Below are positions 10,535-59,142 of a stretch of DNA of 64,000 nucleotides, in pieces (positions within the stretch are counted from its first letter, which is position 1; the number at the start of each line of letters is the position of its first letter). This DNA is from Bryoerythrophyllum caledonicum. Lineage: Eukaryota > Streptophyta > Bryopsida > Pottiales > Pottiaceae. The stretch is from contig OZ020521.1 in assembly GCA_963971425.1 (NCBI GenBank), positions 498,501 through 562,500 on the forward strand. Direction: 5' to 3'. Made by a program: the position numbers and the translations under genes. Under the pieces are notes generated by a model. That model was given only the letters and a program-made list of their open reading frames with translations. It did not search any database and was not told where the DNA came from.

Positions 10535-10564
10535 AACACCATATTCGTTATATTGGGAGATTTA
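10535..10564 (+). repeat. Left terminal inverted repeat of element 1
   Basis: Begins AACACCATATTCG and pairs with 30100-30129. The next bases, GGGAGATTTAGCGACTCCC, form a small hairpin. TSD TAAT lies immediately outside at 10531-10534. Confidence 0.92.
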
Positions 10565-11520
10565 GCGACTCCCAAATTAACACATGTAGATTATAAGAGC
10601 TAAAGTGCACATCTAAACTCTACAATATGGAGGGATATGAGTTTCCATTAAATTGGGAGGTAATGTTTTCTAGAAAAACCCCTAGAAAAATAAGTACTAC
10701 GGATATTATTACATTACGAATCTAACTATGATATTGAAAAGAAGAACACATTAGTTGACACTTCTTTTATACCACATGTGTTCATTGAATATGAATAGCT
10801 AAATATTCACACTCGATCCTTCTAACCCGGATTAACACCATGCTCCAATTTAGCTAAAAGTGAGCTAAATGACGGACAAATATCCACTTGTAAGAGAATT
10901 AGCTAAACACATTTTGATGAGCCTTATTTTATTTAAATGAATTTCAATTCTCCTTGTGGAATACACATTGGCAAAAAATATGTATAACGAGTTTCTAATG
11001 ATGGTGCTCAGAAGTCGAAAAAAAATTGCATACACTACCTTTCTTCGAACTAAAGTGTCCCCATCACTAAGAGGTGCAATGAACTCCAAAAGGCAATTCC
11101 ACACACTTTAGCTCCTCTTGACCTAAAGTGCGCACCATTACTAAGTACACTGAACTAAATAAGAAGATTTGCTCACACTTTAGCTCCACTAGAGCTAAAG
11201 TGCGACCCAACATTTATTTTCTATCATTCACCATGAAGGCAATTACTGGTATTATTGGTTTCAAGACTAGAAGCAATTTACCACATTGTTATTTTAAAAA
11301 GAAAATAAAACATGCTGCAAATTATCACCGATACGCAAAAACAATGGAGAGAATATTTCATAGCAATCATTGGCATCACATATTCTAGTCATACAGAGAG
11401 TAAATTAATCAAATACAAATATCTATAATCTCAACACCAATGGATCTAACCATACTACATGAAGTATTACGCATCAGAATCTAAAATCTAGGAAAAGGAA
11501 ACTCCATTTATCTAAGTCTA
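10565..11520. other. Subterminal noncoding region of element 1 with TTTAGCTC...GAGCTAAA words
   Basis: No gene. Contains degenerate relatives of the element's palindrome ('cactttagctcc...ctaaagtg') at about 10850-10870, 11105-11135 and 11165-11205, downstream of the transposase gene's 3' end. Similar words recur at 16.98-17.1 and 19.83-19.93 kb. Probably subterminal binding sites or their remains. Confidence 0.5.
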
Positions 11521-14349
11521 TTACGATTCGGACCTGGCAAGTGCTTCCAAGGAGGCCTTGATAATTGCTACTTGTCCCTTCGGAATTTTTGTAGTTGAAT
11601 CTTGCACATGACCTCCATCCCTCTTTGAAGACCTAGGTTTCCATGCTGTCAAGATTGAATCGGTACTCTCCCACGTTATGGCTATCCCCTTCTCAATTGT
11701 CCAGCGAAGGTTGCAATCTGTATCCCAATCTTTATAGAACTTCATAACATCCCGATCGTGCGATATAGGGCGGAAGAATTGGATACGCACGGTGTTTGGC
11801 ATATCCGGGTTAGAATTAGGATCTGAAACTGCTTGAGCAATCCAAAATGGGCGCTCGTCCCCATCACAAGGTCGCAATGCAACAAAATAGCCAGCAAAAA
11901 GATCATGACCAGCTCTAAAAGAAGGTGGACGTTCGCGTCTCTGGCCAACAAAATGCTCATCTTCACGGTACTCCTCGCGAACCTCACCCTCCGCTGAGAA
12001 CTCCTCTTCAATGGCATGGGCAATTCGCGTCGATGGCCAAAAGCCATCTTCCAATGATATTGGCATATCCATTGGAATTATCAATGCATCTCTAACATCG
12101 CGCCAATAATACGATAGCGGCTCAAAACGTGATCTGGCTTCAATAGACTCTCGAGATGATTGCTCCCAGTGATCGATGAATCCTGAAAGTCCCTTCACCA
12201 CCTCATGGAGATGTCGCATCATAGAAGGCTTCAATGCATCAGGTTCTCTGCGAGGCCATAAAGATCTTCCTTCAGAATCCTCCTTCCACAATTTGATGCC
12301 ACTACCTTCTCCTCTCTTAGGAAGCCAATCCTCATCATGACAAAGGATTTTATATTTCATTACCGGACAACCACTAGAGTCCACATAAAACTTGAACTGA
12401 TGAGCCTTCGTATGACCCTGCAAAGCTTCATCACCGTCCGCAATCATATCCCCAATGAACTTCTTAAAGTCAGGAACCTCTTGGATGAGATGCGGGATTG
12501 TGGGAACACTCTCATTTTTCATGAACGACCTCATGAGCAAAGGAATGGTTGGAAAACTGTTCTTTCTCAATGCCATACTCCAACGTCCAAATAATGCATC
12601 TATATCATCATGTGTATGACCAACTAGCATAAAATTAACATATACCTCGCGGAAAATGCGTTTTGCCACAAGAAGAGACCAAAAACAGAAAACAAATCTA
12701 TTTTTGTTATCACCAACAGCATTGTCCATTTGCACGTTCAATATTGGTGGCAAAGACCTCCCTGGAACTAGAATATCTGGAATCGGCCCTAATGGATCCA
12801 AACACATCTCCGCACCCCGTAATACCGCCGCATACAATGGATGAGAACTAGATTCAGGAAAGAGTTGTCGGGACGATGACTTCGGAGGCGCCTCCAGGTC
12901 ACTCAATAGTTTTGCAAATGACCCGACCGTGTAATTGGCATCATGGGAGTATAAATCAAGGCCGTAATGGGCGTAACGTTGGTCCACATGACCATGGGCA
13001 AGCATGCCTGTGATTGCAAGAGGCAACTTCATAAGCCCATCTAAGTGCTTTGTTTTATGTAAAAAAATTGGGGAGGCGGTCTTTGAGTGATCCATCTTAT
13101 CATGCATGATGGTAAGAACCTCCTGGGGCGACGACTTTGATCGAAATCGGTTCAGGTAGTACAAGTCCCGATGTGAGAAAGCAGAATCGATGTGAACCTG
13201 CATCTTCTTTTGCCATAGCAGTGATGCTTGTGTTCCAGGTTGAGTAAGCTTCTTCTGATCTTGGTATTTGTCACAAGTAGAACAACGGGCAAAGTTGTCT
13301 CCACCTTTCTTGGCATAGTACTCAGGGAAGCTCACTCGCCGAATCTTACTCAAGCTTGAGGTTGAGATTGGCGGCAATCCACAATCAGCGAGATGATCAT
13401 CAAGAAGCGGTATCTGATCCTTCCACTTAAAACTTGCTGGAAGAACCTTTGCCACAACCTTCTCCACAAATGGGAGAACACGAGACTTGTGAGGCATGTG
13501 GTCCGCATGTCTATCGAGAATGGCTCCAAGAGCGGCATTAGCCACAACCGTATGACCTCTAGGCTTGCGCAAATGGGTATTCCCGTGGTGTTGAGCGGCA
13601 TGACCAGCAGCAGCGTCCTTCGCATTCCGATAGAAAGTACTCGAACTTACACCCATGATTTTCATCCAGACATGGGCACAAACGTCCACACCCTCTAGGG
13701 TCACAACCTTCCTACCCGCAGCCTTTCTATGAAACTGTCTGTGAACGTCGAGTTTGATATGATTTCTGAACTGCACGATGGTCTCACTGTACAAGCGAGT
13801 CCGAAGGACTCTTATTTTATCTTTAGGATAGTGTTGAACACAGTTTTGACTGCAACAACAATTGCTCGCAACAACGTTAATGGAAACAGGGGTCATGAGG
13901 AATTCAACATTCCTGGACAGTGTTGGACTTGTATTCCTTGAGGAATTGTCGTACGAACAGGAGCTCCCACCTAGAGGTCTGTTACGCTCAACCAACCAGA
14001 CATTGTAAACGTCCCTAAGGCAATGATGGAAGAGACTCACACCGTTTAAGAAGACTTGTTGAATAGGCCAGGACTTAAACGAGTACCTCCATTCATCAGG
14101 AGCTTCCTCCAGAACAAAAGTACTCGACACCTGTTCTACAACATTCGAATCCCCAAGAGGACCATAGGAACCTAGAAGTGCACTGGACCGGACATTGCGA
14201 ACCAACCCCTCCGCAACGCGAACACCCGAACCATTATGAAGCGAAACAGTTATCCCGACCCAGAGACGGCGAGGAATAACATCAAACTCAGGAAGGTCTG
14301 GGTTCACGGGAGCGTCAACATGAACATCGTCGCCCTCCGAAGATGACAT
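11521..14349 (-). CDS. DUF7869-like putative transposase of element 1 (942 aa)
   Basis: A large intact frame. The N-terminal third has a Cys cluster (NCCCSQNC, about residues 163-170) and a 'VDVCAHVWMKIMGVSSSTFYR' block (about 221-241). A CxxC knuckle lies at 356-359. Candidate RNase H-fold motifs follow: DKMDHSKT (417-424), QMDNAVGDNKNR (540-551) and GHTHDDIDALFGRW (577-590). From memory these match the DUF7869 family of eukaryotic transposon-like proteins. The C terminus (about 811-905) has a beta-rich 'PFWIAQAV...VRIQFFRP...ILTAWKP' segment, possibly a BAH/Tudor-like chromatin module. I chose the ATG at 14349, not the one at 14427, because a good 3' splice site (ttggaatgcag) sits one base before it and the length then matches the 937-aa homologue at 55568-58381. 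The gene presumably cuts and rejoins the element's ends. The acidic triad is an inference. Confidence 0.85.
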   Translation of the reverse strand: MSSSEGDDVHVDAPVNPDLPEFDVIPRRLWVGITVSLHNGSGVRVAEGLVRNVRSSALLGSYGPLGDSNVVEQVSSTFVLEEAPDEWRYSFKSWPIQQVFLNGVSLFHHCLRDVYNVWLVERNRPLGGSSCSYDNSSRNTSPTLSRNVEFLMTPVSINVVASNCCCSQNCVQHYPKDKIRVLRTRLYSETIVQFRNHIKLDVHRQFHRKAAGRKVVTLEGVDVCAHVWMKIMGVSSSTFYRNAKDAAAGHAAQHHGNTHLRKPRGHTVVANAALGAILDRHADHMPHKSRVLPFVEKVVAKVLPASFKWKDQIPLLDDHLADCGLPPISTSSLSKIRRVSFPEYYAKKGGDNFARCSTCDKYQDQKKLTQPGTQASLLWQKKMQVHIDSAFSHRDLYYLNRFRSKSSPQEVLTIMHDKMDHSKTASPIFLHKTKHLDGLMKLPLAITGMLAHGHVDQRYAHYGLDLYSHDANYTVGSFAKLLSDLEAPPKSSSRQLFPESSSHPLYAAVLRGAEMCLDPLGPIPDILVPGRSLPPILNVQMDNAVGDNKNRFVFCFWSLLVAKRIFREVYVNFMLVGHTHDDIDALFGRWSMALRKNSFPTIPLLMRSFMKNESVPTIPHLIQEVPDFKKFIGDMIADGDEALQGHTKAHQFKFYVDSSGCPVMKYKILCHDEDWLPKRGEGSGIKLWKEDSEGRSLWPRREPDALKPSMMRHLHEVVKGLSGFIDHWEQSSRESIEARSRFEPLSYYWRDVRDALIIPMDMPISLEDGFWPSTRIAHAIEEEFSAEGEVREEYREDEHFVGQRRERPPSFRAGHDLFAGYFVALRPCDGDERPFWIAQAVSDPNSNPDMPNTVRIQFFRPISHDRDVMKFYKDWDTDCNLRWTIEKGIAITWESTDSILTAWKPRSSKRDGGHVQDSTTKIPKGQVAIIKASLEALARSES

Positions 14350-14860
14350 CCTGCATTCCAATGAGATAAATATTAAATAACCCTGACAAATAAGATTGGG
14401 TAAATATCTTGTAGGAATAGACATCAATGAAAAAGCATAGGAAGAGGGTAATTAATCTCGAATCGAGGTAAGGTCTGGCGCTTAAAAATAACTATGATTC
14501 AAGTGAGTTGACATTGAAAACCAGGCAAATTTAGCTTGACTCGAGGTAAACTCATGCGGTATTTTATGACAAGTATAAAATTTCATGCGACTAGTTTTAA
14601 TCCGAATATGAAATTATCTCACCCTAGTCAGTGACAATTAAGCCCGACCCAACCTAAATTAATGACTATTAGACTCATTGTCATTTTATCTCGAGTCGAG
14701 GTAAACAGAAATAGAAAATAAGGTATGATAGTTTAGATCGAGTCGAGCTAAACTGCCTTACCTTCTTTCCAATGACTGTTTACCTCGACTCGAGCTAAAC
14801 TGTCCCTGGAAAGAAGGTAGGACAGTTTAGCTCGATTCGAGCTTAACTGTCCTTCCGTGA
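14350..14860. promoter_or_regulatory. Palindrome cluster upstream of the element 1 transposase
   Basis: Six CTCGASTCGAG-type sites: about 14455-14470 (degenerate), 14533-14551, 14685-14705, 14730-14755, 14778-14802 and 14822-14850. The last three are 45-50 bp apart, with arms reading TTTA(G/C)CTCGA/TCGAGCTAAA. The cluster lies in the 5' leader/intron and proximal promoter of the minus-strand transposase gene, consistent with autoregulation or protein loading. The sequence shows the sites; the function is inferred. Confidence 0.7.
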
Positions 14861-15299
14861 TTCTCGGCGTCTTTTTAGGGATTCATATGGTAAAACTCTT
14901 CAGCCTGAGAATCTGACTCTCTGTGTACTACAACCCAAATCTTTCTGTCAGCCGTCAAGAAACTCGCAGTGATGCTTCAAAATCACAGTAGCAACTGGAA
15001 CCACAGCAATAACCCTACACACTTTCTCATCCTAATTCCTAGAGACTGTGCACGGAGAATGCAAGAAGTATACATTATGTAACTTATGAAGAAGACAACT
15101 GGTGCTTTGTTGCCTCGCGCAAGCACCCTGCTTAACCGTGCGCAACCTATAGATGTTACCCTCCTCAACCTCCGACAGTTGTTGTACCTCCAAGCCTCTC
15201 CACAACAACCTTGCACAGCAACCAAAGTGAGAAGGAAAGAAATGAAGAAAGTTTTCGAGGATCGGCGAGGTCACTCATGGACACACGACCGTTTCAAAA

Positions 15300-15385
15300 T
15301 TGGCGGGAGGAAACTTCAGAATTGGCGGGGGGACTTTTCCACAGCCCCTTAAAAAGTGCAAATTCAAAATCTTAGCGGGAAATTG
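15300..15385 (-). promoter_or_regulatory. E2F-like sites upstream of the element 1 transposase
   Basis: GCGGGAAA at 15375-15382 (TTTCCCGC read on the transposase strand) is an exact E2F consensus. Two related TTGGCGGG words lie at about 15299-15306 and 15322-15329. They are about 1 kb upstream of the chosen ATG. The homologous gene in element 2 has TTTCCCGC twice at a similar distance and in the same orientation, which supports a real promoter. Confidence 0.55.
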
Positions 15386-15463
15386 AATCAACTATGTCCT
15401 GGCTGTCTAAAATAAGGAAGAGTACATACCTCGAATCTTTATATACAAGGTTTTAGGGTAACG

Positions 15464-15565
15464 CTCAGGGTTTGGGTTAGGGTTAGGTTTAGGGTTTAGG
15501 ATTAGGGTTTTTAGGGTTTAGGGTTTTGGGTTTAGGGTTTGGTATTTAGGTTCAGGTTTAGGATC
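15464..15565 (+). repeat. Degenerate plant telomere-like repeat (TTTAGGG)n
   Basis: About 100 bp of irregular GGTTTAGGGTTTAGG units, read TTTAGGG on this strand. It lies between the E2F-like sites and the A/T-rich middle of element 1. Teloboxes (AAACCCTA) near E2F sites are typical of plant S-phase promoters, so this may be promoter sequence. It is not a chromosome end. Confidence 0.75.
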
Positions 15566-17224
15566 CTTTGTTTAGGTGTTATCTTCTGATGTCATTTCAT
15601 TTCAATATAATAATACTTTGAAGATTCAAGATATTTGCCAATTCAACTAAGGTATAGGGAAATGTAGAGAAGATATTGAGATGATTAGAAATAAATTGTA
15701 TTACAATCCAAGTAGGACTTATCTATTATGTTGAAATCAAAGACCTTAACAAACGAGTAGCATTCACCCAAAAAAAAAACATGTTATATGTGAATGTGTA
15801 TTTTTAGCAAAAAAGTATGTATTCAAACATGCTTTGGACATCATTTCTTTGGGGTTTTGAAAATGTGCATCATCTTACTATTTTGTCATCAATTTAGAAT
15901 GTGCATCCTTTGGCAAGAATCCCAAGTGTCCCCATGGTCTGAATTTCAAATTGAAATTGGTTATTATCCACTTAGAGGTACTCAAAGACTTGAAATGTGC
16001 ACAAACTAATATTTGGATTAAAATATCTTATATTTGAGTTCACATTGTATTATCATGAGTTTAGGGTGTGGCAATCTAAGCATGACATGAAAGATGGAAG
16101 AATTCTTGACCATACACAATTTATTTCATGTTTTGACGTGAAATTAAAGACTTTGTCATTTGTAACACATAGAGAGTGGAACAATATTAAAAGATTTAAA
16201 CAAGAAACGGAGAGACCTCCTCATGACAAAAAAAGGATAATCAAAATATAAAATATATCTAATACAAAGTGTATCACTTAGTGCATCAGACATAATTTAA
16301 TGTTCGTAATGTAAGTAATTTTGAATTTATTTGTACATGCAAAAAAGGAATAATTAGTTTTTGAGCACGTTCTAGTGGTCGCAAATTATATTTGAAATTC
16401 TCAAAATTTTGTAGAAGGATGATAAAAGTCATGAGGCATAATTATTAGTAATTTATTTTCTCAATGAACGTCTTCAATAAAAGTTATGCGAGCCAAAAGA
16501 GAAACTTCTCGATTGCCGGCACGTCGAGCAACCAAAAAAACGTTTTGCTATGACACAGTATGGAATGAGATATTTTCAATACATAGAAGTAATATTAGAA
16601 CGAATGATATTGTGGAAAAACATGTTATTTTTCTAGTGAAAAACAAGACTACATCCCAATTCATACATTTTCACACATTGTCACATATTATTGATTTAGG
16701 GTACCAAGAATACTTAGACTTCATATCCACTGAAGACTATGGGATCGTCATATTTTTTTGCTTTTTAATATTACTATTGGAGATTTAGGTCCACATATTT
16801 TGAAAATCCTTTTAAAATTCAAAAGATTACTATTTCACTTGTGAAATACTTAATCATAAAGAGAAGTACGGAGTTCAAAATGATTGTTTGAAGAAGTGGA
16901 AATACACATTGCACATACATCAGCTCAGTTTTTAGCAGAGGTGTGCACCATCACTACGTGCAATGAACTAAAAGGAAGGTGTGCACACACTTTAGCTCCA
17001 CTGGTGCTAACGTGTGCCTCATCACTAGGTGTAGTGAACTAAAAAGAAAATATGCACAGTTTAGCTCTACTAGCGTTAAATTGTGCACCATCACTAAATG
17101 GAGTAGATTAGAAAGCAAAAATGCACTATGTAGCTCCAGTATACAGAAGCTGGCTTCTAGAGAAGTGGAAACTAAGTAGGAATCCATACAGTAATTGTAA
17201 AATGTACAATAAGTGTAGTGACAA
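15566..17224. other. A/T-rich noncoding segment of element 1
   Basis: No gene is supported. The short open frames (60-100 codons) have A/T-driven composition and no recognisable domain. Degenerate TTTAGCTC...GAGCTAAA words occur at 16985-17015 and 17050-17080. Confidence 0.5.
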
Positions 17225-19380
17225 AACTATACATCACCCAATGTCAACTACCACTCTAAATGTCAATCCTAGTAAATAGTGGAACATAAAGTTTTTTACT
17301 TGTGGACAATTAGTTTAGGAAACCTTAATCATGGTTTGATTACATCTTGAGCATCATAGTAAAGAAGGGTTGAGTGCATGTAGAAAAGCAAGAATTTGCA
17401 AGAAAGAGCTTGGGAATAATCGGACGTAGGTATGGAGCAAACGAAAAATATCAAAAATTGGACAAAGTAGAATGTAAAATATGGAGGGAAAATGAAACAA
17501 CAAGTAGAAGATTGGAAATATAAGAACATTCTTCCGGAAACAAAAATGAGTAAAGAAAGGAATATTCGAAAAGGAAAAAACTTAAACATACAGTAAATAT
17601 AGAAATACAAGTAAAATACTCATTAGATATCCATCACATATTATGCATTCAATGTGCATTACATATTCAGTAAATATTCATTAAATACTTATTGAATATT
17701 CAAATACACATTAATTTTACATTAGAAATTTATGCACTATTCATTAACTAATCATTAAGAGTGCATTAAATACTCTATAAATAATCATTAAATATACAAA
17801 TATTAATTAAACTATCATAAAATATACTTTCAAAACTTCAAACATTCATTAAGTAAAATTTAAATATTCTTTAATTGTACATAAAAGTTACAGATATACA
17901 AATATACATGAATCATACTACTAAAATCATAATCCGCGCTGTGAACCACACAACGATCAATCGGGCAGTCAACCGTGTAGTGAACTATAGGAATGGTACA
18001 GACAACCGCGCAGTTAATTGCGCAAACAACCGCGCAGTTAATTGCGTAGGCAACCGCGTAGTGAATCATGTTACCTTTCTTTTTAATATAGTTTGTAATA
18101 TAAAAACTACATTAAAATGGTTGGATGATTGCGTTGCAAAGCATTTGCTTGAGTTTTTGGGTGTGAAAAATTTGCATTTGCGTATTGCAATTTGTGCTCT
18201 TGATTACAAATTTGACGTTAAAAATATTTTTTGAGTTAAGTGCTTACTAAAAGATTGAATTGTAAATTATGAATTGTAAACTTGGAGTGAAAAAGTTGTG
18301 AAGTTGGAGTTGTGATCTTGGAGGTTGGCATACAAAGTTGGAGTTGCAAAATTGCATATTCGAGTTGTGGAGATTGAAATTACAAGTTTGAGGTGAGATT
18401 GCAAGTTTTGAGATTGTAATTGCAAATTGAGATTGTGGGTGTGTGAAATTGAGATTGTAATTGCAAGTTGAGTTTGTGGGCGTGTGAAATTTACATTTGA
18501 GTGTTGCAATTTGTGCTGATCCAAAATGAATTTGAAACTCTTGATAACAAATTTGACGTTCATAACATTTTTGAAATTCCATGTTAATATGCAAAAAATC
18601 TAAAACCTAATTAATTTTTTTCTATTCTATTCTATTACATAATTAAAATTCATGCATAGGTTTCAAAGACATTTATATTTAAGTAGATTGTTGTTTCCTT
18701 TCTTTTTTAATATTTTGTGATATAAAAACTACATTAAAATGGTTGAACTAGTGCATTGCAAAGCAAGCGCCAACTGCTATTATTATTATTATTGTTATAC
18801 TACTTAAATCATAATCTACGCAATGAACCACACAACAATCAACCACGCAGTCAACCGTGCAGTGATCTACAGAAACAATGTAGTCAATTGCGCAGTTAAT
18901 TGCAGTCAACCGTGCAATGAATCATGTTTCCTTTTTTATTTGTAGTTTGTAATATAAAAACTACACTGAAATGGTTGGACTAATGCGTTGCAAAGCAAGC
19001 GCCAATTTGCTAGTTATCCTATAAAAAATCATTTCAAAGTCATTAGTTATTGGCTAATTATATGATTACACATTAAATATTCATTAGATAATTTTAAAAA
19101 ATATTTTAAAAATGCAAGAGATGGGAATGAGAATAGTTGTGGATAAGACGATAAGAAATTGAGGTTGAAGATGAGACAAAGAATAAATGCATGGCGACCG
19201 GTAGTCAAAACATATTGAGCTTATACAATTTATCAAGTATCAAAATTGTGTGCTAGGGAAGAGTTTTGATAGAGGGCTATTACAAAATGAATTGTAGTAG
19301 GTGAACAAATGAGGGATAATATTCATGACAATGGTGGCTAAAACTAGTTTCCAACTTGTTGACAAATAGTGTACTAGAAA
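17225..19380 (+). repeat. A/T-rich block shared with element 2, opposite relative orientation
   Basis: Several landmarks here recur in the same order and on the same strand at 48395-50140. These are 'gtcaactac...aaatgtcaa' with 'ttttttact'; 'gagtgcatgtaga'; long ATTCATTAAATA tracts; 'aataaatgcatggcg'; and 'gataatatt...atgacaat' with 'aacttgtt'. Because the two giant elements face opposite ways, the block is inverted relative to the element genes. It is probably a separate nonautonomous repeat. Inside it, 'aaccgcgcagttaattgcg' type repeats occur at 17.93-18.06 and 18.82-18.92 kb. Confidence 0.6.
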
Positions 19381-19820
19381 AAGAGAATCTCCACCAGGGC
19401 CGAGGGACTGGGATGCAAGAATAAACACGGTAAAGCCCACTCCGTGAGGCGTAGGCCTGTGTCTCGGCCCACTGGAGTGGCGGCGACGGTTCTTCTAAAC
19501 AATAAATTTACAAATAGTACAGGGAGACCAAAGTTCCCCGGGAGCATGTGTTCAATCATGTAATTACACGAGGGAATTAAAGAAAATCAATAAACACCCC
19601 AAAAAAAATTAGCCTACTATGGCGTTAGTGTTGGGTGCTGGCGTTCCCTCATAGTGGCCAATTCGGGGACGGTGCATGGGGAAAAGGGTAACCCCCCTCC
19701 CTTCATCTCAAACTTGGGCACCTTCCCGCTGGCGTGGAAAATTCTCCGTCAGGGGTGGAGATGCTGTAACTACTGGATTTGTACCGTTAGAGTAAAAACA
19801 AAATAAGGTGAAAAGTAAAG
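19381..19820. other. GC-richer unidentified insert in element 1
   Basis: A segment of markedly higher GC than its neighbours ('ggcccactggagtggcggcg', 'ggcgttccctcatagtggcc', 'ttcccgctggcgtgg'). It has no long frame and no recognised family, and might be a fragment of another retroposon. Nothing more can be said from sequence alone. Confidence 0.35.
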
Positions 19821-20540
19821 AAAAAATTCACACTTTAGCTCTATTAGAGCTAAAGTGTGCACCATCACTAAGTGTAGGGAATTAAAAAGGAAGTATGCAC
19901 ACTTTAGCTCCAATAGAGCTAAAGTGTGCACTGACGTTTATTTTATAATTATACAATTGCAAGATGTGGTCTTAACATACTTATTGTCTGTTCGATTTTC
20001 ATAGTAAATAATATCAAACTCATAAAAAATCAAAACGTGAATTGAAAGTAATAGAATTTTAAAATCGTAGCTTTAGAACTTTCTTAAGTGTACTTCACCT
20101 AATAATTGGTGTAGGAGGAACTTATATACATCGATGGTAATGAATTTACTCCTTGTGTAATGCAGAAATTGAAATCGAGTCAAGTGAAAGCAAGCTGATC
20201 CACTAAAACCATGAAAGAAAACTAAACACTAAAATCCTGTTTCTAACACTAATATATAATCGTTCACTTCCGTCCAATCCAAGTTTGTGTATTATTGAGA
20301 AAATTCCAATTTAGAAGTTTTAATTGAGATCATACGAATGAAATTGGAAATAATCACTTTTCTTTTGCTACCTGTTCGTTGCCCCAGAATATGCAAAATT
20401 GTAGTGTTAATGGCCTAGAAAAAATGTGTAGGAAATTTACGAGTACAGAAATACTACACGCGCGTAATATCTTGAACTTGTTCTAGAAAGATTAAATTGG
20501 CTTCTTCAAACTCCGGGTATCAATAATAAAGTGGAATGAA
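19821..20540. other. Noncoding, with two TTTAGCTC/GAGCTAAA sites
   Basis: Sites at about 19830-19862 and 19893-19930 read 'actttagctc(t/c)(a/t)nnagagctaaagtgtgca'. They share the arms of the element's palindromes but lack the CGASTCG core. No gene is seen in the rest. Confidence 0.45.
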
Positions 20541-21672: not shown

Positions 21673-21840
21673 ATGGCTGAAAGGTAAAATCCATGCTCTC
21701 ACCCAGGAGCCCTAAACCCTACGCCTTCAATGTCATAGAACAAAAAAAGAATCTGCACAAACTGCAATAAATAAGCTCTTCAATGAACACAGTTTAGCTC
21801 GAGTTGAGCTAAAGTGGAATATCGATATTGCTCTAATGTC

Positions 21841-22112
21841 CACACTTTAGCTCGACTCGAGCTAAAGTGGGCCTCCACTGTGCACTATTGTCGACACTAT
21901 AGCTCGAGTCAGCCTAAAGTAGGCTTCCACTGTGCACATTTGGCCACACTTTAGCTCGAGTCGAGCTAAAGTGCGCTCTCCAGCATGCTCTTTTGGCTGC
22001 ACTTTAACTCGACTCGAGGTAAAGTGTGACCAGCAAAGCACGCTGGAGAGCGCATTTTAGCTCAACTCGAGCTAAAGTGTGGACAATAGTGCACAGTGGA
22101 GGCCCACTTACA
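21841..22112. repeat. Long inverted repeat built of nested palindromes
   Basis: The sequence 'gggcctccactgtgcacta' with its preceding palindrome (21841-21893) returns as the reverse complement 'tagtgcacagtggaggccc' at 22087-22107. The inner words 'gcgctctccagc' and 'gctggagagcgc' also pair (about 21974 and 22042). The whole 270-bp block can fold as a large imperfect cruciform centred near 21.98-22.0 kb. Confidence 0.7.
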
Positions 22113-45159: not shown

Positions 45160-45177
45160 CAAGAACTGGAACCTTAC

Positions 45178-46545: not shown

Positions 46546-46603
46546 CGGGAATAGCGAACTACGTACAGATATATAGGAAACGAGTGAGAATGCTAACTAA
46601 AAC

Positions 46604-47293: not shown

Positions 47294-47299
47294 TGTGAT

Positions 47300-48394: not shown

Positions 48395-50140
48395 TTAAGT
48401 GTAGTGGACACCAAATGCAAACCCATATACTAATTTAAAAGTTATCCATTGATGAAATGATAATACTATACACTAAATGTCAACTACTATAGTAAATGTC
48501 AACTACTATAGCAAATGTCAATTCTATAAGTAGTGCAACATTAGGTTTTTTACTTCTGTACATTTAGTGTGTGTAACCTAGAAAATTACAATGTGTACAT
48601 TTTAAGCATCAAAATAAAGAAGATTTTGAGTGCATGTAGAAAGAAAAATAAATTGCACAAGGTATGTTTTAAAAAAATAGAACGTTCATATGGAACAAAT
48701 GGAAAATCCCCAAAAATTGACAACAAAAAACGTTCATGTGGAGAAAAATTGAAACTAGAACTACTTGATCAAAAAAATTAGACCTTTGATTTAGAAGAAA
48801 AGAGGGAAAAGAAAGGAAAATTGGATTACAAAACAACATAAATATCTAATAAAATTAGAAGTTTTCATTACATACTCATTACATATTCATTAAATATGCA
48901 GCAAAAATTCATTGAGAATTTAATAAATATTCAAGTATACATTAAATATACATTTTAAAATTATTATCTATTCATTAAGTATTCTTTCATACTTTTGCAA
49001 ATGTACATTAATTTATATATTTTAATCGTCTTAGGAAAATTAAATGTGAAACTCTACATTTTTTACTAAATGCTATTGAAGTTTTCTATCAATGATCTTA
49101 AAATATAATAATACTCAATAAGTATTCGTTAAATATACATATGTGCATTAAATATTCATCAAACATATCAATATACCTTAAAGAAACCAATTTTTTTTAC
49201 ATATTAGTATATATATTTGTTTCGATATTCTCAAATACATACAAAGATACATGAACTATTTTTGAATCTTTATAGATTTCAATATACATAATATATTCTT
49301 GAAATGCTATTGCAGTATTTTCTATATGATCTTTAAATATAATAATATACAATACGTATTCGTTAAATATACATATGTACAGTAAATATTCTTCAAACAT
49401 AGCAATATACCTTAAATAAATCAATATCCTCTAATTATTAGTATATATTCATTTCAATATTCTTAATAAGATGAAAAGATACATTAACTATTGTTTAATC
49501 TTTAAAGAATTCAATATACATATAATATTCTTGAAACATTCATTCAAGAATCTTCTATTACACTATTAAATTTAGAAATATACATTAATTATTCTTGAAA
49601 ACATTCATTCCAAAATCGTCTATATTTTCTTTAACATATAATTATTCATTAAACATTCTTGAAGCATTCATTCACAAATCACCTATGCATTTCTTAAATA
49701 TATAAATATACATGAAATATTCTTGAAACATTCATGAACATATCATCTATGCATTTCTAAAATATAAAAATATACATTAAATATTCATGAAACATTCATT
49801 CACAAGTCATCTATTTTTTCTTCAGTATAGATATTTACTTTTAATTCTCATTAGATATTCATGTTTTTAATTCAAGGACTGCCTGACATGTGAATTGGAA
49901 TAGTTAGGAATGAGAGGATAAGGAGATGAGGTTGAGGACAAGACGGGTGGAATAAATGCATGGCGGCCAATAGGCGGTTGATTGAGGGCAAACACTATTT
50001 CTCAACTTGTTACAAATTGTGGTGCTGTGGATGATTGAGGCAAATACAATGGGTACTAGGGAAGGTGGACGATTGAAAGATAATATTAATGACAATAGGA
50101 GCTAATAGTATTTGGTAACTTGTTAACAAAGAGTGTACCA
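48395..50140 (+). repeat. A/T-rich block shared with element 1
   Basis: Same-strand homologue of 17225-19380. It shares 'gtcaactactat...aaatgtcaa', 'ttttttacttctg', 'gagtgcatgtagaaa', ATTCATTAAATA tracts, 'aataaatgcatggcgg' and 'gataatattaatgacaat...aacttgttaacaaagagtgta'. No gene. The short frames here are composition artefacts. Confidence 0.6.
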
Positions 50141-50315
50141 GGGTATATACACAATTTTTAATACTACACTAAAAGCCATATTTAGTGTTGTTGTGGCAAT
50201 GTGTGAAAATCTTTTGTTGTTCTTCAAATGCATCTTTTTGCTACAAGCAATAAATGATTATGGACAATATAAAAGAAAATGTATACAACTTACTAGTGTT
50301 GAAAATCTCAAATAT

Positions 50316-52320
50316 AGTAGTGTGGCCTAGCAAAAGTATCTGGAGTTGCCGGAGGTGCTCATAAATAAACAAATTTTTAGAAATGGAATATACCATAGGT
50401 CAAGGGCACCTTCGGCACTTGGATGCCGAATAATTAATAATAGTCAAAAATGTGGGTTTGGCTTTCTAAAAGAGATTCTATAAGATTTCGGTTGGGGTTC
50501 ATAGATTACAATATTAGCTTATTTTGACGGCCTAGGGGATTGAGCCTAAGACCTGGAGCTCCCTACTTGGAGCTCTTTTGCACACACTTCCAAGAATCAA
50601 GGCTTTCCAAGCCAGAACTCCCCATTGATGTCCTTTGTGTTCAAAGATTTTGTATATTACTATTTTCTTCAATTTCCGCATTTCACTCAATAAGTTCCCA
50701 AATCATTCGGCTTTGCCTTTTTTGTATTATTATAGCCAAAGGTGCCCTTCACCTCCGATACTGTTCCATTGAAATCCAAATTGATATAGCATGTTAAGGT
50801 TCAAAAACATATTTTCTAACTATATGGAGTACTTTGAACACGTTCAGAGAACTAGTGTAAAGTAAAAAAAAAACAAGTGGAGAAATCAATATTTGAATGT
50901 ACTTGAAAAACGAGAAATAAATCGAACTTGATTGCAGCAAAAACTAACCCTTCATATGAAAAAAAAAACCTATAGAGTGGATTTAAATTCTTTATAACAC
51001 CAAAGGAATAAAAGTAATTGTACAATCTAGGTCTAATTGATTATTCTAAATGGTATTAAATTCAAAACTTTAAAATGCTTTTGTTCACTTAATAAAGAAA
51101 TTAGTGCTATCCATAAATAATATACACATAGTACTAAGAAGTTACTTTTGAAAGTGCTAATGACTGTAATGTAACTTTATGGATAATTCTAATACTTTAG
51201 AGTACACAAATACAACTTCAATTTAATAAAAATCTATAATTTATACTTACGCACTGAAATGTATGTATGTATATAAATATAGTCATGAGCAGAACAGGGA
51301 AATGGGAACCTAAAGGTGCGCATTGTGATCAAATTATTTGTCCCTAGGATTGCAAATAGAGAACTGTGCAAAATAATTCAAGAAATTAAAAAATTGTGTT
51401 CCCTTATGACTTTTATTGAAGATCACAAATATGATATTCCATTTGCAAACACATGCATGAAAATGAAAATGTACTTTGACATTTTTACTATAAAGATGTA
51501 TATAAGTATGAATATATATAAATTCATATGTACAAGCCGAACATTGGTTTTTTGAGGGAATCCATGATCAAATATAAATGTTATAATTACTTACCTTTTC
51601 TTGGCAAGCAAAAGTAACACTGAGAGGAATTTAAATGCTAGCAAATAAGTTGATCATACACCACATAGCAACTTCATAAATTTCAAAGTTCCAAATGTTT
51701 TTGTAAATTACTAAGATTAATAAATCTTTAAAACCACGTTCTTAAATACGAACAATGAAAATTCAATTCATAGTTAAATGTGTGTCTAAGACACACATAC
51801 ACACTCACACATAACACACACACACACTCATGTACAGAATTTAAGTCGACAAATGAGAAGAAGAATGGGTATGAATTAAAGTAAATTTTTCAATTTCTAA
51901 ATAAAAGAATGCAACATTGACTTTTTTTAATCAAAGAATGCCACTTTTATAAGTCAAGACGATAGTACTATGTGAATATTATTTATGGATAGCATTCGAA
52001 TAATACCAAGTGCAATATATTCACTAATGTGGATTCAAGCGGAATATATTCTCTAATGTGGATTGAAGCGGAATATATTCACGAATGTGGATTCAAGCGG
52101 AATATATTCACGAATGTGGATTCAAGCGGAATATATTCACGAATGTAGATTCAAGTGGAATATTCACGAATGTGCATTCAAGTAGAATTCAAGTGGATAT
52201 ATATCTTTATAACTCCAAGTGAATTTTGATTTCAATGAAAGAGTATAATCTATTTATAAATTTTTATTCATTGCGAGCACTTCCGGCAACTCCAAAAACT
52301 TTTGCTAGTACACACTACTA
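50316..52320. repeat. 2.0-kb segment bounded by ~45-bp inverted repeats
   Basis: The left edge 'tagtgtggcctagcaaaagt...ggagttgccggaggtgctc' pairs with the right edge 'gagcacttccggcaactccaaaaacttttgctagtacacacta' (52276-52318). No transposase is inside; the content is A/T-rich with CA microsatellites (51.79-51.83 kb). Related left-edge sequence also lies at 53215-53275. It may be a nonautonomous DNA transposon or an inverted repeat family. No target duplication was found. Confidence 0.45.
52010..52195 (+). repeat. 29-bp tandem repeat
   Basis: About six copies of 'ggaatatattcacgaatgtg' plus 'gattcaagc', period 29 bp, with the end copies diverged. Confidence 0.85.
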
Positions 52321-52719
52321 AAGACAAGTTATTTATTAAGAATTTATTGAGATCATATGGTTGGAATTAGTTATACAAATCTTTGTTTCCTTCCTTCATT
52401 ATTGCACTAGATTTTACAAATTCGAAGAATGTTTGGAGTGAAATTGATAAGGAAATATAGGTTCTACATTATAAATAATAGTTTATGTAAATTTCTTTGA
52501 AAAAGTAATTTAATCCCTAGCGTACCGTGACAGTTTTACACCGAAAACACTTCAAACTTGTTGGATTCTAGTGCAATGAACAAAGAAGGAAACAAATACT
52601 TTGACTTTTAGTCCTAACCGTACAATCTCAAATAAGACTTGCAAAGTAAGATACTCTAAGTATTTCATAAACCTTGACCGCACGGATTGAAAGATTATAG
52701 TATTTAAAGCCATGTAATT

Positions 52720-53900
52720 GGTTTGTTTTCCTCCCTGCGTTCAGTGGAATAGTACACTTTGACTTCACTTGGTGTCAAAATTTTTCACTACACAAGGTCT
52801 AATTCCGTTACGATCTTGTGAACATGACGTTAGTTCCTTACACACTAATTTTTAGAGGTAGAGGACCGGTGTAGCAAATTCAAAACAACTATGCAAGGAG
52901 TGGAGGCTCAGAATTTGTTGTTTCGCAGTTTAATTTTTTTTTTGAACTTAATATGTTTTAGATTGATAATCCTTATGGTCATTAAGAAGGTATACACTAC
53001 ATATTGTTGTGGATAAAATAGGAAAGTGAAAAATATAAAGATATCTAGGTTTTATGTGGGAAAGAAGAAGTTTTTTTGGTAACTTGCTCGACAATAAGTG
53101 ACAACGTGTGAAAATGTTTCACTTGGATTGGTATGCTATTTTTCACTAAAGACAAGAACTTTTTATCAATGGTACAAATTGAAATAATATTACTTGCAAG
53201 GATTGAGAATCTCACATTTGATATAGTGTCATAGCAAAAGTTTTTGGAGGTGACCGAGGTGTCCGCCCTCCCTTTTTGGAATTCAAAACCCTATAATTTT
53301 TTCTTCAAATGTTGAATTCAGGAAAAACTGTTTTCCCACTAAGGTCAAAACAATGGTTCATTTTCTTCCCTGCAATGAGTAGATCTGGAGAATTAGACTT
53401 CACTTTATATCAAATTTTTGCATTGTACAAGGTCTAAATCTTTTACAATTGTCTTAAGCATGCTGTTATTTCCCACACACCATTTTTTAGAGGTAAGAAA
53501 GGGGTGTAGCATATTCAAAAAAAGTGTGCAAGGAGTGGAGGTTTAAGAATTGCCATTTCACTTTTCCTTTTTTTTTAACTACGTATGTTTTTGGATGATA
53601 ATCCAAACGGTCAATAAGAAGGTTTTCACCACATATTTTCGATGAAAAAATAAAAAGTGAAAAATATGAAGATCTTGATTTCTAGAATTTATGTAGAAAA
53701 GAGGAAGTTTTTTTCCCCGTTGCCCGACAATGTGTGAAAATGTTTGACTTGGGAGAAAATGCCTTTTCACACTAAAGAGAAGACTTTTTTTAAAGTTATC
53801 TAAAGAAGGAAATATTCTTTATATGTGAAAAAACTCAATGGGAATAGAAACTTTTGTCAAGAAATTTGGAGCTTCCCGGAGTCCCCATTTTTTACTTTCA
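52720..53900 (+). repeat. Diverged ~630-bp tandem duplication
   Basis: 52720-53290 and 53350-53900 share an ordered set of landmarks. These are 'tcctccctgc/tcttccctgc', 'acttcact..gtcaaa', 'ttttagaggta', 'gcaaggagtggaggt', 'gataatcc..tggtcaataagaaggt', 'aagtgaaaaatat', 'gaggaagttttttt' and 'gacaa..gtgtgaaaatgttt'. Noncoding. Confidence 0.75.
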
Positions 53901-54220
53901 GTGGTACGAACATTCAATCCGCAAATCCAATTTTTTTCTTCAAATATCTCCACATACCTATTACTAGAGGCAATTTAGCGTAAATTATTCAATAAAATTG
54001 GAATTTTTGACAAATTTTAGGTACATGCCCGAAATCCAATTTGGCCCCGGGGGGGCAGTTGGTCCTGTAGAGGTTAAAGGCGATAAATTTGTGCCACTAC
54101 TTATCCAAAAGACTTGTTCAATGCACGCGTGGATTCCGGGCTAGTGGCGTACTGAAATTAGTGCGTATGTCGAACCAAAAATAGGACAGCGGCAGCTAAA
54201 AAGTTGGATACTGGATACCA
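53901..54220. other. Noncoding promoter-distal DNA of element 2
   Basis: No gene. A/T-rich sequence gives way to a GC-richer stretch with a G-run near 54040-54056 just before the E2F-like sites. Confidence 0.4.
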
Positions 54221-54268
54221 TTTCCCGCCCCCCAAATCCTGGAGCCGTTGGAAAGGAGTTTTCCCGCC
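54221..54268 (+). promoter_or_regulatory. Two E2F-like sites upstream of the element 2 transposase
   Basis: TTTCCCGCC at 54221 and TTTTCCCGCC at 54259, same strand as the gene, about 1.3 kb upstream of the ATG. A CT-rich stretch (54355-54385), typical of plant 5' leaders, follows. The arrangement parallels GCGGGAAA at 15375-15382 in element 1. Confidence 0.55.
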
Positions 54269-54765
54269 CAGCCCCGATTTTTGAGCTCCGCCTCGGAGAA
54301 GACTACCATATGCTCATTTTCAGAAGTTCATTTCCTACTTTTGCACCTGCTGGATTCTCTCTTCTCTCTCTCTACTCCGCTCACTGTCTTGCTTCTTTTG
54401 AGAACATTCGCAGTAGTTGTCAATACTATGTCTGAGGTTATTTGAAGTACGTTGGGTTTTTATTTGGCGCATCCTTCTGGAGTGCTCGATTTCTTCTCAA
54501 AGGTACTTCTACATCATGAGATTGTTGTCTGAGGCTGTTCATGAGCAATCGAGGGCTACTTGACCCAAGCCCATAGGCCGTCCGCATCACTGCAGTTTGT
54601 TCACACTATGTGTAGTATTTATTTCGTCGACGAAGTCATAAATATCGGTGTAGTACTTCTAATTCACTGTGGGATTTGCATGCAATTAGAAGAAAGTGTG
54701 CTGTGAATGCTCCAACACTATTCATGATCACTGTAGTGTATCACTGAACTACTTCGCAACTAAGC

Positions 54766-55428
54766 ATTTATCCTCGAGTCGAGGATAACACTGACTCTTG
54801 CCAGTTCAGCTGTCGATTAACAAATCCTACGAATGAAATCCTTATTATATTTATCCTCGGGTCGAGGATAACACTGACTTTTGCTAGTTTAGCAGTCGGT
54901 CTACGAGTCCTACGAATGAGATCCTCGTTACATTTATCCTCGGGTCGAAGATAACACTGACTCCTGCTAGTTCTGAACTTGATCAACGGATCATATGAAA
55001 GATATCCTCATTTAAGGACTGAATTTTTTTGTTCGATTGAGATTCACAATATAGTATTCTAAAGTAAAATTACTGGGTCTATCCTCGACCCAAGGATACA
55101 CCCAAGTGATGGAAAAAATCAAAGCCAATCTGAATTAAAATCAATTGTGCTTGATCACTTGAATGGATAGGTCGCCTACTCTCCTTTTATCCTTGAGTCG
55201 AGAATGTACCTATAATCGTCTATTATCAACCCGCTTGATTTTACTGTCTTTAATGTATCTTATCGAGTATTGTGTTGTCTGATGATATTTCCCGGGATCG
55301 TGCACAGATGTCGCTCTCTCTGTTCGATTCATACAACTAGTATCCTCGACTCGAGGATAGTGTTTTGGATATGTATTCATGTGTTTTTTTAATTTCTCAT
55401 TCATATCCTTGAGTCGTGGATACTCGGT
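54766..55428 (+). promoter_or_regulatory. Palindrome array upstream of the element 2 transposase
   Basis: Seven sites at about 54766, 54850, 54932, 55077, 55186, 55338 and 55402, several with one arm mutated (CTCGGGTCGAGG, CTTGAGTCGAGA). The first three are 82-84 bp apart and lie in a local tandem repeat ('aacactgactyttgcyagtt'). Located in the leader/intron just upstream of the ATG. Confidence 0.75.
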
Positions 55429-55567
55429 GAAGTTTTTTGATATTGCCTTTGTTCCTGAATGCTGTTGTCCAAATTTATATTGCTTTGGATATATGGTACT
55501 TATTAATTTGCATATTTCAATTATCTTCATTCCAGAACTAATGTCGCTTCAATCTGATGTTTTGTAG

Positions 55568-58381
55568 ATGGAAGAAGACTCATTTGATGTCAGAAATCGA
55601 GTTCCACCAACCTTGCCTCCCGGTGTTGCTCCATGTGAGGGTATTCCTTGCGCTGCCTGGTTTTCGAAGCGCGTTATCCTTCGAAATACATCAGGGAATA
55701 ACGTCGGAATCGGACTATGTCAGAGTGTTGATTCCAACTTAATTCCCGAAACTAGAGGTCGGCCACTTGGAGATGACCATGTTGCGGTTCTGATTGCTGA
55801 ATCTTTAAATGAAGATGATATTCCTTTGAATTGGATGTTTGCTCTCCGAGCATGGCCAATTCGACAGGTCTTTCTTCGTAATGTGAGTTTGTACGATCAA
55901 GAGCAAACTTGCATTTACAATGCCGCTCTAAAGGTATTCCGTCGGGGTCCAAGAATTGGTGTTCGACAGTATGAGAGCAATCGTCAAAGGCGAGTGCTGC
56001 CTTCCCCACCAAAGAAGGAAGTACTCCTTTCTGCACAATCAATCAACCTTGTTGCGAGCGTTGTTTGTTGTCCAAGAAATTGTACTCAAAGCTTTCCACG
56101 CTGTTTAATTTCTGTACTTCGAACGCAAGTTCACAATGACATTGGAGGTGTATACTTTCGGAAACATGTTTTACTTGATGTGCATAGGCAACTGCACATT
56201 GACTCTAATGGCAACCATGTGGTGACACTCGATGGAATTCATGTATGCCAAGATGCATGGTGTACAATCATGGGGGTCAGCCGAGCCACATTCTACCGAT
56301 ACAAAAGCGATGCGAAGGATGAAGTGCGAGCGATGGCACACGGCAATTCTGGGACTAAGAAGCCTCGCACCCATACTCTCCAAGCAATTGCTACATTGCA
56401 CGACCTACTTGACGATGCTGCTGACAGTAGTCCTAACAAGACTACTACACTTGGCACTGGGGAGAAGGTTGTTTCGAAACATCTTCCCTCCTCCTTTCAA
56501 TGGAGTGCAGTGTTGCCCAAAGTGAACGAGGTGAATTCAAGATTTGGCCTCAAGCCAATATCTTTGTCTGGTCTTAGCCGAATTCGGAGCTCTGAATTTG
56601 AACAATTTTCCACTAAGAAACCGGGTGACAACTTTGCTCGCTGCGGTAGATGCGACCAATTGAAGCAATTGAAGAAGGCTAGTACGCGAGGGTCCTCCGC
56701 ATTCAATATGTGGGATACCAAATTAAAGTTGCATCAGGCCTCCCAACAGACTCATCGTATTTTATATTATGGGAACCGGAAGAACTTGGAGGATAGGCCA
56801 GATGACGATGTTTGCATCATCCATGATAAAATGGATCACAGCAAAACAACATCTCCCCATTTTTCTCACAAGAATAAGGCAACGGAGTCCTTCATGAAAC
56901 TCACCGTAGCTGTGACTGGAATGATTGCTCATGGACATGGAGATGTCCGTTATGCACATTATAGTCTTGACATCTTCCCTACCGACTTGAATCACACTGT
57001 TGGATCCATTGCTAAGTTACTTCGGGACTTAGAGAGTCCACCGGTGTATTCTTCTCGTGAATTATTTGCAAGAGGGAGAGCTTCTCCTCTATCTCAGGCT
57101 GTGCTTGTGGATGCCAATGTGTGCCTTGGATCCCTTGCGGCTCCACCGGTTGAACCTGTTCCTGCAAGGCAATTACCACCAATTCTCCAAATGCAATTGG
57201 ATAATGCCACAGGAGACAATAAGAATAGATTTGTGTTTGCTTTCTTCTCCCTACTTGTTCATTTGGGTATTTTCCGAGAAGTACACGTGAACTTCTTACT
57301 TGTTGGTCATACTCACGAGGATATTGATGCAATGTTTGGGAGATGGAGTACCAAACTTAAGTCAAATAGCTATCCAACGATTCCACTCTTGATGAAGTCA
57401 TTCATGGAAGCTGAAGAGAAGCCGGTTATTCCACATCTTATTGAAGGGGTGCCCGACTTCAAGGGCTTTCTTGATGGATATTTGTGCAACGGCAATGAGG
57501 CCCTTACGGGTCATACAAAGGGCCAGCAGTTCAAGTTTTACAAGGACTCTGATGGTTTGCCAAAGATGCAGTACAAAATTCTTTGTACAGACAGAGATTG
57601 GTTGCCCGAGGAGAATGGAGGAATTCAGTTGTGGAAAATGACGGCAGATGGTAGACCAATATTGCCTCATGGGCAGCCACTTCCTCTCATTCCGCATCGT
57701 CATGAGAATTATGATGAGGTTATGAAGGGTATTTCTGGGTTTCTAAGTCTATGGGAATCTATGGCAAATGAGGATATCTCAGGTGAATACAGGAGGAAGA
57801 ATGAACATATCATGTACTATTGGAGAGGTGTAAAGGCTGCTCTTGAGGTGCCATTGGAAGAATCGACTTCCCTACGCGAGGGATTTTGGCCACTATCTAG
57901 ATATGCTCCGTCTATTGTTGATGAATATGATATAGATGGTACTTTGAGGGAGGAGTATGCAGAAGACCCTCCATTCATTGGACAACGACGTCATTGTCCG
58001 CCTCCATACTTCCGGGTTGGTAGAGATGTATATGAGGGCTATGTACTTGCGGTACGTTCAGCTGATGGGGATTTGCGCCCATTTTGGATTGCCTTGGCAT
58101 TGACTAATCCACATCCGGATCGTGAACATTCTCATGAGATTAAAGTGCAATACTACAAACCCGCATCCCAACGTCATGTGGACTTGGAAACGTACCAAGG
58201 GTGGGATTCTAGTAATGGGAACAATTGGGTAGAAGAATCAGAATCTGAACCAATCTGGGTATATACAGATTGCATTGTAACAGCTTGGAAGCCTAGGTTC
58301 CGTGGAAACACTAGTTCTTCGAGGCTCAAAATTCCGAAATCACAGGTAGAAATAATCAAGGCATCTTTAGCTGAATATTAG
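55568..58381 (+). CDS. DUF7869-like putative transposase of element 2 (937 aa)
   Basis: Intact frame beginning directly after a splice acceptor (gttttgtag|atg). Motifs are as in the element 1 copy: Cys cluster CCPRNC (167-172), 'HVCQDAWCTIMGVSRATFYR' (225-244), CGRC (359-362), DKMDHSKT (420-427), QLDNATGDNKNR (543-554) and GHTHEDIDAMFGRW (580-593). A C-terminal 'PFWIALAL...IKVQYYKP...IVTAWKP' module follows. Conservation with the 942-aa homologue is very strong in the 540-610 block and moderate elsewhere, consistent with purifying selection on the catalytic core. It faces away from the large gene across a ~9-kb noncoding middle. Ends in TAG. Likely a DNA-cutting recombinase acting on the AACACCATATTC ends; catalysis is not proven. 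Confidence 0.88.
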   Translation: MEEDSFDVRNRVPPTLPPGVAPCEGIPCAAWFSKRVILRNTSGNNVGIGLCQSVDSNLIPETRGRPLGDDHVAVLIAESLNEDDIPLNWMFALRAWPIRQVFLRNVSLYDQEQTCIYNAALKVFRRGPRIGVRQYESNRQRRVLPSPPKKEVLLSAQSINLVASVVCCPRNCTQSFPRCLISVLRTQVHNDIGGVYFRKHVLLDVHRQLHIDSNGNHVVTLDGIHVCQDAWCTIMGVSRATFYRYKSDAKDEVRAMAHGNSGTKKPRTHTLQAIATLHDLLDDAADSSPNKTTTLGTGEKVVSKHLPSSFQWSAVLPKVNEVNSRFGLKPISLSGLSRIRSSEFEQFSTKKPGDNFARCGRCDQLKQLKKASTRGSSAFNMWDTKLKLHQASQQTHRILYYGNRKNLEDRPDDDVCIIHDKMDHSKTTSPHFSHKNKATESFMKLTVAVTGMIAHGHGDVRYAHYSLDIFPTDLNHTVGSIAKLLRDLESPPVYSSRELFARGRASPLSQAVLVDANVCLGSLAAPPVEPVPARQLPPILQMQLDNATGDNKNRFVFAFFSLLVHLGIFREVHVNFLLVGHTHEDIDAMFGRWSTKLKSNSYPTIPLLMKSFMEAEEKPVIPHLIEGVPDFKGFLDGYLCNGNEALTGHTKGQQFKFYKDSDGLPKMQYKILCTDRDWLPEENGGIQLWKMTADGRPILPHGQPLPLIPHRHENYDEVMKGISGFLSLWESMANEDISGEYRRKNEHIMYYWRGVKAALEVPLEESTSLREGFWPLSRYAPSIVDEYDIDGTLREEYAEDPPFIGQRRHCPPPYFRVGRDVYEGYVLAVRSADGDLRPFWIALALTNPHPDREHSHEIKVQYYKPASQRHVDLETYQGWDSSNGNNWVEESESEPIWVYTDCIVTAWKPRFRGNTSSSRLKIPKSQVEIIKASLAEY

Positions 58382-59142
58382 ATTTCAACAGGTTCTGTGG
58401 TTTTTGATGACAAGAGTTATCCTAGTCATTTGAAATAGGTGGGGGTGCATGTCCTTATTTGAACTTGTGTTGTTTCAGGCTAGATATTGTACTAAGTAAG
58501 TACTGAACATGGGGGTTGTCGTGGAATTGAGACGTTGAATGTTCGCGTAGCATATTTGTAGACAAAAATTAGATTAGAATTTGTAGTTTCATATAGTGAT
58601 GTATTGTGTTGCTTCAATATCATTAAACGTTGTGGTTTGTTTGTGAAGTTATTGATGGATAAATTGTGGTTAACATAGTGTGTTTGATTCATTGTGCATT
58701 TATCCTTGATGCATTGATACTTTCTATTAAAATAAATAATTGAATGTATTTCTACAATATGTGCTAATTTTTTAGTGATTGGTATTTCAATGACCTTGTT
58801 GTTTGAAACAAGTACCACCTCTTGAAACCCTAGGTAAATTTTATTTCCCTTCAAATTGAGAAGACATGCATTTTGGGTGGCATGTAAATGAGAGTATATG
58901 TCTTATTTTAGTCCAATTTTGAGCCTTGCTAGGGATGCTCAAATTTTTGCCGCTTAAAGTTTTATGCAGTGTTTTTATTCTTGCTATGATAATGTTTTTG
59001 GATGTAGTAGTTGGCAATTTCAATCGAGCCTAAGTCTCAATATAATAAATAGTCTCAAATTAATGAAACAATAAATTGACTATAATTAGACACTATGATG
59101 AATTGAGACTCGGAAATGTCTCATTTTAATGAATATGGCGTT
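58382..59142. repeat. 3' noncoding DNA and right TIR of element 2
   Basis: No gene. A poly(A)-type A/T-rich region ends in repeated GTCTC/GAGAC words (59030-59125) and the TIR (59117-59142), the inverted match of 38772-38797. TSD AAAT follows at 59143-59146. Confidence 0.85.

Follow-up and report, generated by a model that had tools for sequence, protein, structure and literature searches.

Introduction

VANDALs are Mutator-type transposons. In Arabidopsis, according to PMC5735166, they encode, besides their transposase, a faster-evolving accessory protein, VANC, which carries DUF1985, and short motifs are arrayed in noncoding regions, upstream and in the introns of the element's own genes, with motif and accessory protein diverging together; PMC10398659 gives the same layout for VANC and its motifs. 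We report here on a 64,000-nucleotide stretch of DNA (the window) from the moss Bryoerythrophyllum caledonicum (assembly GCA_963971425.1, contig OZ020521.1, positions 498,501 to 562,500, forward strand). It contains two giant transposons bounded by terminal inverted repeats (TIRs), E1 and E2, whose layout would be that of VANC on VANDAL, reached with unrelated parts. The parts differ in that the transposase belongs to DUF7869, the accessory protein (hereafter the large protein) has ParB-like, methyltransferase (MTase)-like and NIF domains, and the motifs are palindromes of at least 19 bp; DUF1985 was not among the 12 families of a Pfam scan of a 28-member set, A2. We propose, as an even bet, that these are giant cut-and-paste transposons with a self-recognition system, in which the large protein would bind the palindromes and keep the element's promoters active or unsilenced. 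If this is true, it is a second, independently assembled case of transposon self-recognition by motif arrays, made in mosses from phage/bacterial-type parts.

Results

Two giant transposons inserted in a satellite array

A previous reading of the sequence alone had proposed two giant TIR transposons of 19.6 and 20.4 kb, and both were recovered at the positions it gave, with exact bounds and 4-bp target site duplications (TSDs) (Table 1). The window holds four near-exact matches to the TIR word, which are the four claimed ends, and none of 100 shuffles reached as many. Both elements sit inside an array of a ~193-bp satellite (about 5700-10534, 30130-38771 and 59143-64000 of the window), whose repeats are mostly spaced 188-193 bp apart; against one 300-nt reference, 60 matches reach an identity of at least 60%. 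The exact empty sites that the sequence-only reading had named as a check were supplied by this array: once the element and one TSD are removed, a satellite monomer is left, with 3 (E1) and 2 (E2) mismatches over 60 positions to the best other monomer. The DUF7869-like transposase and the small 3' gene announced for both elements were also found in each. The predicted structure of the transposase is a DDE/integrase fold, with invariant D420, D545 and D587 in E2, and it aligns with Mos1 and TnsB from residue 193 onward, with a high root-mean-square deviation (rmsd) there. Having TIRs, a TSD of fixed length and a DDE-type transposase, E1 and E2 are class II TIR cut-and-paste DNA transposons, which also brings evidence of transposase function for Pfam family DUF7869.

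Palindrome arrays

Each element holds 22 dispersed palindromes of 19-21 bp (at most 3 mismatches), with a common core, CTCGASTCGAG, and lineage-specific arms, TTTAGCTCGASTCGAGCTAAA in E1 and TATCCTCGASTCGAGGATA in E2. The sequence-only reading had overlooked these arrays. At the same threshold, sites other than those of Table 1 are found in the middle of the element (two in E1, none in E2) and at the outer end beside the transposase (one and none), and no palindrome lies in the transposase open reading frame (ORF) or at the other element end of either E1 or E2. The flanking DNA of the window has none within 5 mismatches. With 5 mismatches allowed, the E1 type has no match in E2, and the E2 type has six in E1. 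Genome-wide, the E2 type occurs 867 times, against 0 for the control, and many of the first places listed are clustered. Among the further copies introduced below, I34a has the E2 type and J34b has CAGCTCGASTCGAGCTG with long arms, whose symmetry reaches up to 18 bp per side.

To measure conservation, 22 noncoding palindrome sites were taken from copy A, and differences were scored among the other five copies. The palindrome arms (positions 5-10) differ by 0.088, and the same measure shifted by 20-40 bp gives 0.195-0.298, flank values that may come in part from misaligned repeats. Random noncoding sets average 0.145 (4 of 2000 were as low as the arms), nine CGnnnCG sites differ by 0.169, noncoding DNA away from the palindromes by 0.137 and large-gene exons by 0.118. 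CpG survival is 85% at palindromes versus 68% in other noncoding DNA and 77% in exons. The centre base is C in 57 cases, G in 55, T in 6 and A in 3. Where the arms match the consensus perfectly (14 sites), 68 of 164 C/G pairs differ at the centre, and for the remaining 8 sites the figure is 14 of 79; in ordinary C/G columns, where other bases were also counted, C-G differences amount to 2690 of 110,969 pairs. The figures suggest in-place inversion of perfect palindromes, of which hairpins are capable; so many C-G changes would not, we infer, arise if the only force were selection for symmetry of the site.

The large gene

The large gene encodes one protein of ~1,600 aa in five exons, with, in order, a ParB-like domain, a DNA-amino-methyltransferase-like domain, a coiled coil and an NIF/FCP1-type domain. 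The ParB-like and HAD parts named in the sequence-only reading were thus both present, HAD being the NIF/FCP1-type domain, and the MTase-like domain had escaped it. In structure models, a ParB CTPase fold and a beta-class DNA amino-MTase fold are both found in one chain. These two folds are those of phage and bacterial ParB-like and N4/N6 DNA methylase proteins; the moss protein differs from these in its added coiled coil and NIF domain, its spliced gene and its degenerate motifs. As in FCP1/SCP/dullard-like phosphatases, the last domain matches PF03031 significantly, and most of the aligned rows have WSSM and DDSP.

The gene evolves under constraint: 15 copy pairs give a median dN/dS of 0.25, and the value for its ParB-like part is 0.12. 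Relatives of the same architecture are annotated in Ceratodon purpureus and Physcomitrium patens, the two species also named among transposase relatives. The earlier proposal that the cargo is functional is supported by these observations. As a separate observation, many Ceratodon large-protein relatives (among P0099-P0113) bear M758_UG or KC19_VG locus tags on contigs of 110-112 Mb, which we take to be the U and V sex chromosomes.

Table 1. Position of the elements, palindrome clusters and genes in the window
Feature	Position	Strand	Details
Element E1	10535..30129	+	19,595 bp; 29-bp TIRs at 10535-10563 and 30101-30129; TSD TAAT
E1 transposase, DUF7869	11521..14451	-	single open frame, 976 aa
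E1 palindromes upstream of transposase	14530..14846	.	5 sites, TTTAGCTCGASTCGAGCTAAA
E1 palindromes upstream of large gene	21793..22948	.	8 sites
E1 large gene	23039..28719	+	N-terminal + ParB-like, MTase-like, coiled coil, NIF
E1 large-gene exons	about 23039-24469, 24697-~26060, 26344-27301, 27509-27780, ~27925-28716	+	model from copy A and E1 splice marks
E1 palindromes in large-gene introns	24498..27424	.	6 sites
E1 NIF/FCP1-type domain	27925..28719	+	DxSG in place of DxD; DDSP kept
E1 small 3' ORF	28963..29193	+	77 aa
Element E2	38772..59142	-	20,371 bp; 26-bp TIRs; TSD AAAT; inverted relative to E1
E2 small 3' ORF	39998..40330	-	111 aa
E2 large gene	40536..46545	-	ParB-like, MTase-like, coiled coil, NIF
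E2 NIF/FCP1-type domain (NIF exon)	within 41366-40536	-	DxNG, DDSP
E2 large-gene middle exon (coiled coil)	within 43522-41768	-	splice sites by eye
E2 palindromes in large gene	42019..45156	.	7 sites: 5 intronic, 2 coding
E2 large-gene exon 2 (MTase-like)	within about 45000-43680	-	splice sites by eye
E2 large-gene exon 1 (ParB-like)	46545-45179	-	splice sites by eye
E2 palindromes upstream of large gene	46606..47290	.	8 sites
E2 palindromes upstream of transposase	54769..55422	.	7 sites, TATCCTCGASTCGAGGATA
E2 transposase, DUF7869	55568..58381	+	937 aa; DDE/integrase-like fold at residues 401-619

Copies across the genome

The 437-Mb assembly (894 contigs) contains 1283 + 1295 = 2578 occurrences of the TIR word AACACCATATTC, against 19 + 14 = 33 for the reversed control. 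Among the first 100 places listed, inward-facing neighbours formed 21 pairs at 500 bp or less and 10 at 10-36 kb, and outward-facing neighbours 0 and 5, respectively. Further TIR pairs were read, nine long (A-F, I34a, J34b, K28) and two shorter (G, 7.5 kb; H, 4.8 kb), and two were read at their ends only, L027/L028 and a second E2-like insertion (C1:16261003-16281241), which has, judged by those ends, the TSD TGAA. All nine long pairs match the large gene and eight match the transposase, the remaining one, D, being an inverted duplication. Neither short pair matches the large gene: G has the transposase only, and H a weak match to it.

Of 10 regular giant insertions, nine have the same 4 bp on both sides: E1, E2, the second E2-like one, and copies B, C, E, F, I34a and J34b. 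In the tenth, copy A, no such match was found. Five pairs, D, G, H, K28 and L027/L028, are set apart as chimeric, partial, composite or mismatched, and none of them has identical flanks; K28 has two transposases and looks composite, and the ends of L027/L028 are of different TIR types. The TSDs vary (TAAT, AAAT, CATC, CATG, ACTT, AGGG, CTGT, TGAA) with no evident common sequence. Confinement of the genes to this locus, with neither independent copies nor empty sites, was the outcome the sequence-only reading had set against itself. It is not what was found: the same genes occur elsewhere in independent copies bounded by TIRs, with 4-bp TSDs that differ, and satellite monomers give the empty sites.

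Miniature inverted-repeat transposable elements (MITEs) of 163, 237 and 404 bp were also recovered (L041-L048, L002, L005, L007; L007 and L047 are one locus, counted once). Nine of 10 distinct MITEs have identical 4-bp flanks, L042 being the exception. All 10 contain one palindrome, with an intact core in 9. In the 404-bp family the arms are of a fourth type, TTTAGGTCGASTCGACCTAAA, and no full-size parent of this family was found among the copies read.

Two of the long copies, I34a and J34b (L029-L036), are TIR-bounded elements of ~34 kb with TSDs AGGG and CTGT; their extra ~14 kb, which in J34b lies mostly between large-gene exons 1 and 2, may be nested insertions. At L021 (C1:4695033-4702503), a 7.5-kb TIR pair contains a mostly open transposase frame (881 aa), and neither a large-gene match nor matching flanks were found there.

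Discussion

A proposed VANC-like self-recognition system

Several features recall the layout of VANC and its motifs: the palindromes are arrayed at the promoters and introns of the element's own genes, their arms vary with the lineage of the large protein, this protein is less well conserved than the transposase, and MITEs retain a palindrome. For these reasons, binding of the palindromes by the large protein is proposed. The large protein would dimerise through its coiled coil and bind the palindromes through its ParB-like part, its MTase-like part or both, a DNA binding made plausible by the modelled folds of the two domains. The FCP1/SCP-type domain would thereby be brought to the element, where it would act on RNA polymerase or on a phosphorylated partner, so that both element promoters would be kept transcribed or unsilenced; given its DxN motif, this domain may instead be inactive and serve for binding only. 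On this reading the system would be one of sequence-specific self-recognition, probably VANC-like in an anti-silencing or transcriptional role. The protein-site pair is testable, and specificity swaps are possible as at least three natural lineages have differing sites.

Several observations weigh against this proposal. The canonical motifs are GERR for ParB, DPPY/W and FxGxG for beta-class DNA amino-MTases, and DxDx(T/V) for NIF/FCP1 phosphatases. In the moss protein, GQHS replaces GERR; the MTase-like domain has a D(F/L)R..P-like stretch for DPPY and GxK for GxG; and the second Asp of DxDx(T/V) is Asn in all 8 rows aligned (DxNG) and Ser in E1 (DxSG). Because these residues depart from the canonical ones, enzyme activity of the large protein is doubtful. 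Its structure model is poor overall (mean pLDDT, the predicted local distance difference test, of 49.6), and the Physcomitrium homologue modelled was without the NIF part. The gene is broken in both window copies, by in-frame stops near 24230, 25162 and 25294 in E1, and by in-frame TAG codons at least near 44853 and 42394 in E2. The excess conservation of the arms is moderate (0.078-0.098 versus 0.137, and 0.088 versus the random mean), and differences in the nine-base core, its centre counted in, amount to 0.116. Finally, palindrome recognition may belong to the transposase or a host factor instead of the large protein.

Other explanations

The first of the less favoured explanations, which we consider less likely than not, is a ParB-parS-like system derived from a phage-type ParB/methyltransferase protein. 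The protein would load at element-specific palindromes and spread as a nucleoprotein domain, and its fused phosphatase-like part would act on chromatin or the transcription machinery. Each lineage would in this way mark and protect its own copies and MITEs only. Compared to bacterial ParB-parS, the moss system differs by GQHS in place of GERR and by its many sites with lineage-specific arms; Pfam showed no ParA partner among the E1 and E2 ORFs scanned.

A little less probable is that the transposase binds at the palindromes, which would then resemble internal or subterminal repeats known from other transposons, and that the large protein has another role. One palindrome is kept between the TIRs of every MITE read, as expected for a cis site needed in transposition, the alignment with Mos1 and TnsB fits, for all its high rmsd, and four E1 palindromes lie within 1 kb of the element ends when 5 mismatches are allowed. 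At 3 mismatches, however, only 1 of 44 palindromes does, and in the full elements the majority sit at promoters and in large-gene introns, kilobases away from the ends.

That the large protein is a phage-type DNA modification or partition-like system, which loads on the palindromes, spreads and marks the element with an active MTase-like domain, we consider unlikely. The two folds in one chain speak for it. So does a viral protein of 507 aa, H9YSJ8, whose alignment of 656 columns (E-value 4.7e-6) has the length to cover both; it is one of the BFVD matches, among which are also ParB-like nuclease proteins and DNA methylases. Yet that protein is unnamed and the rmsd is 29.6, the MTase and ParB motifs are degenerate, and no ParA was recognised among the ORFs scanned.

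Still less probable are functionless, self-propagating hairpin repeats tolerated in noncoding DNA. The flipping centre bases, the arm symmetry that extends far past the core in J34b, and the two E2 palindromes inside coding sequence would agree with such repeats. Their absence from the window flanks, lineage specificity and like placement in two diverged elements argue against, as do arms more conserved than their surroundings and the single palindrome per MITE. Lastly, that the large gene is a dispensable passenger captured once is very improbable, its stops in both window copies and the lack of a match to it in G and H being outweighed by the dN/dS, by its matches in E1, E2 and every further long TIR pair read, and by the relatives in two other mosses.

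Class of the elements and previous descriptions

CACTA/EnSpm transposons have a 3-bp TSD and CACTA termini, and Mutator/MULE elements a TSD of 8-11 bp; the 4-bp TSD rules out both, and the AACACC termini the former as well. Kolobok targets TTAA, and is ruled out as TSD sequence varies among copies. Sola, Academ and other Repbase DNA transposon superfamilies have a TIR cut-and-paste plan in common with the moss elements, and Sola has 4-bp TSDs too. The sequence-only reading knew of no described class of this kind. This stands for the literature searched, in which DUF7869 was not found and a search for five of the six terms ParB, FCP1, transposase, moss, DNA transposon and methyltransferase gave nothing; it does not extend to Repbase, which lay outside that search and whose superfamilies are listed, without sequences, in PMC4455052. 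A Physcomitrium transposon paper (PMC7466625) makes no mention of Sola, TIR, MITE or phosphatase. An abundant family of giant transposons with its MITEs is described here, which was not found in the literature searched.

Other features

Beside the satellite, a block at 6900-8150 of the window has 57.8% GC and several long overlapping open frames, with no Pfam match in the three frames scanned and no NCBIfam match in one frame. Elsewhere in the genome, the TIR end at L051 precedes a stretch distantly similar to DUF7869 transposases (28% identity, E 7e-18). An ORF at 1290-1946 of the window weakly matches Transposase_32, a Pfam family of plant transposon protein (E 4e-4, under the curated cut-off).

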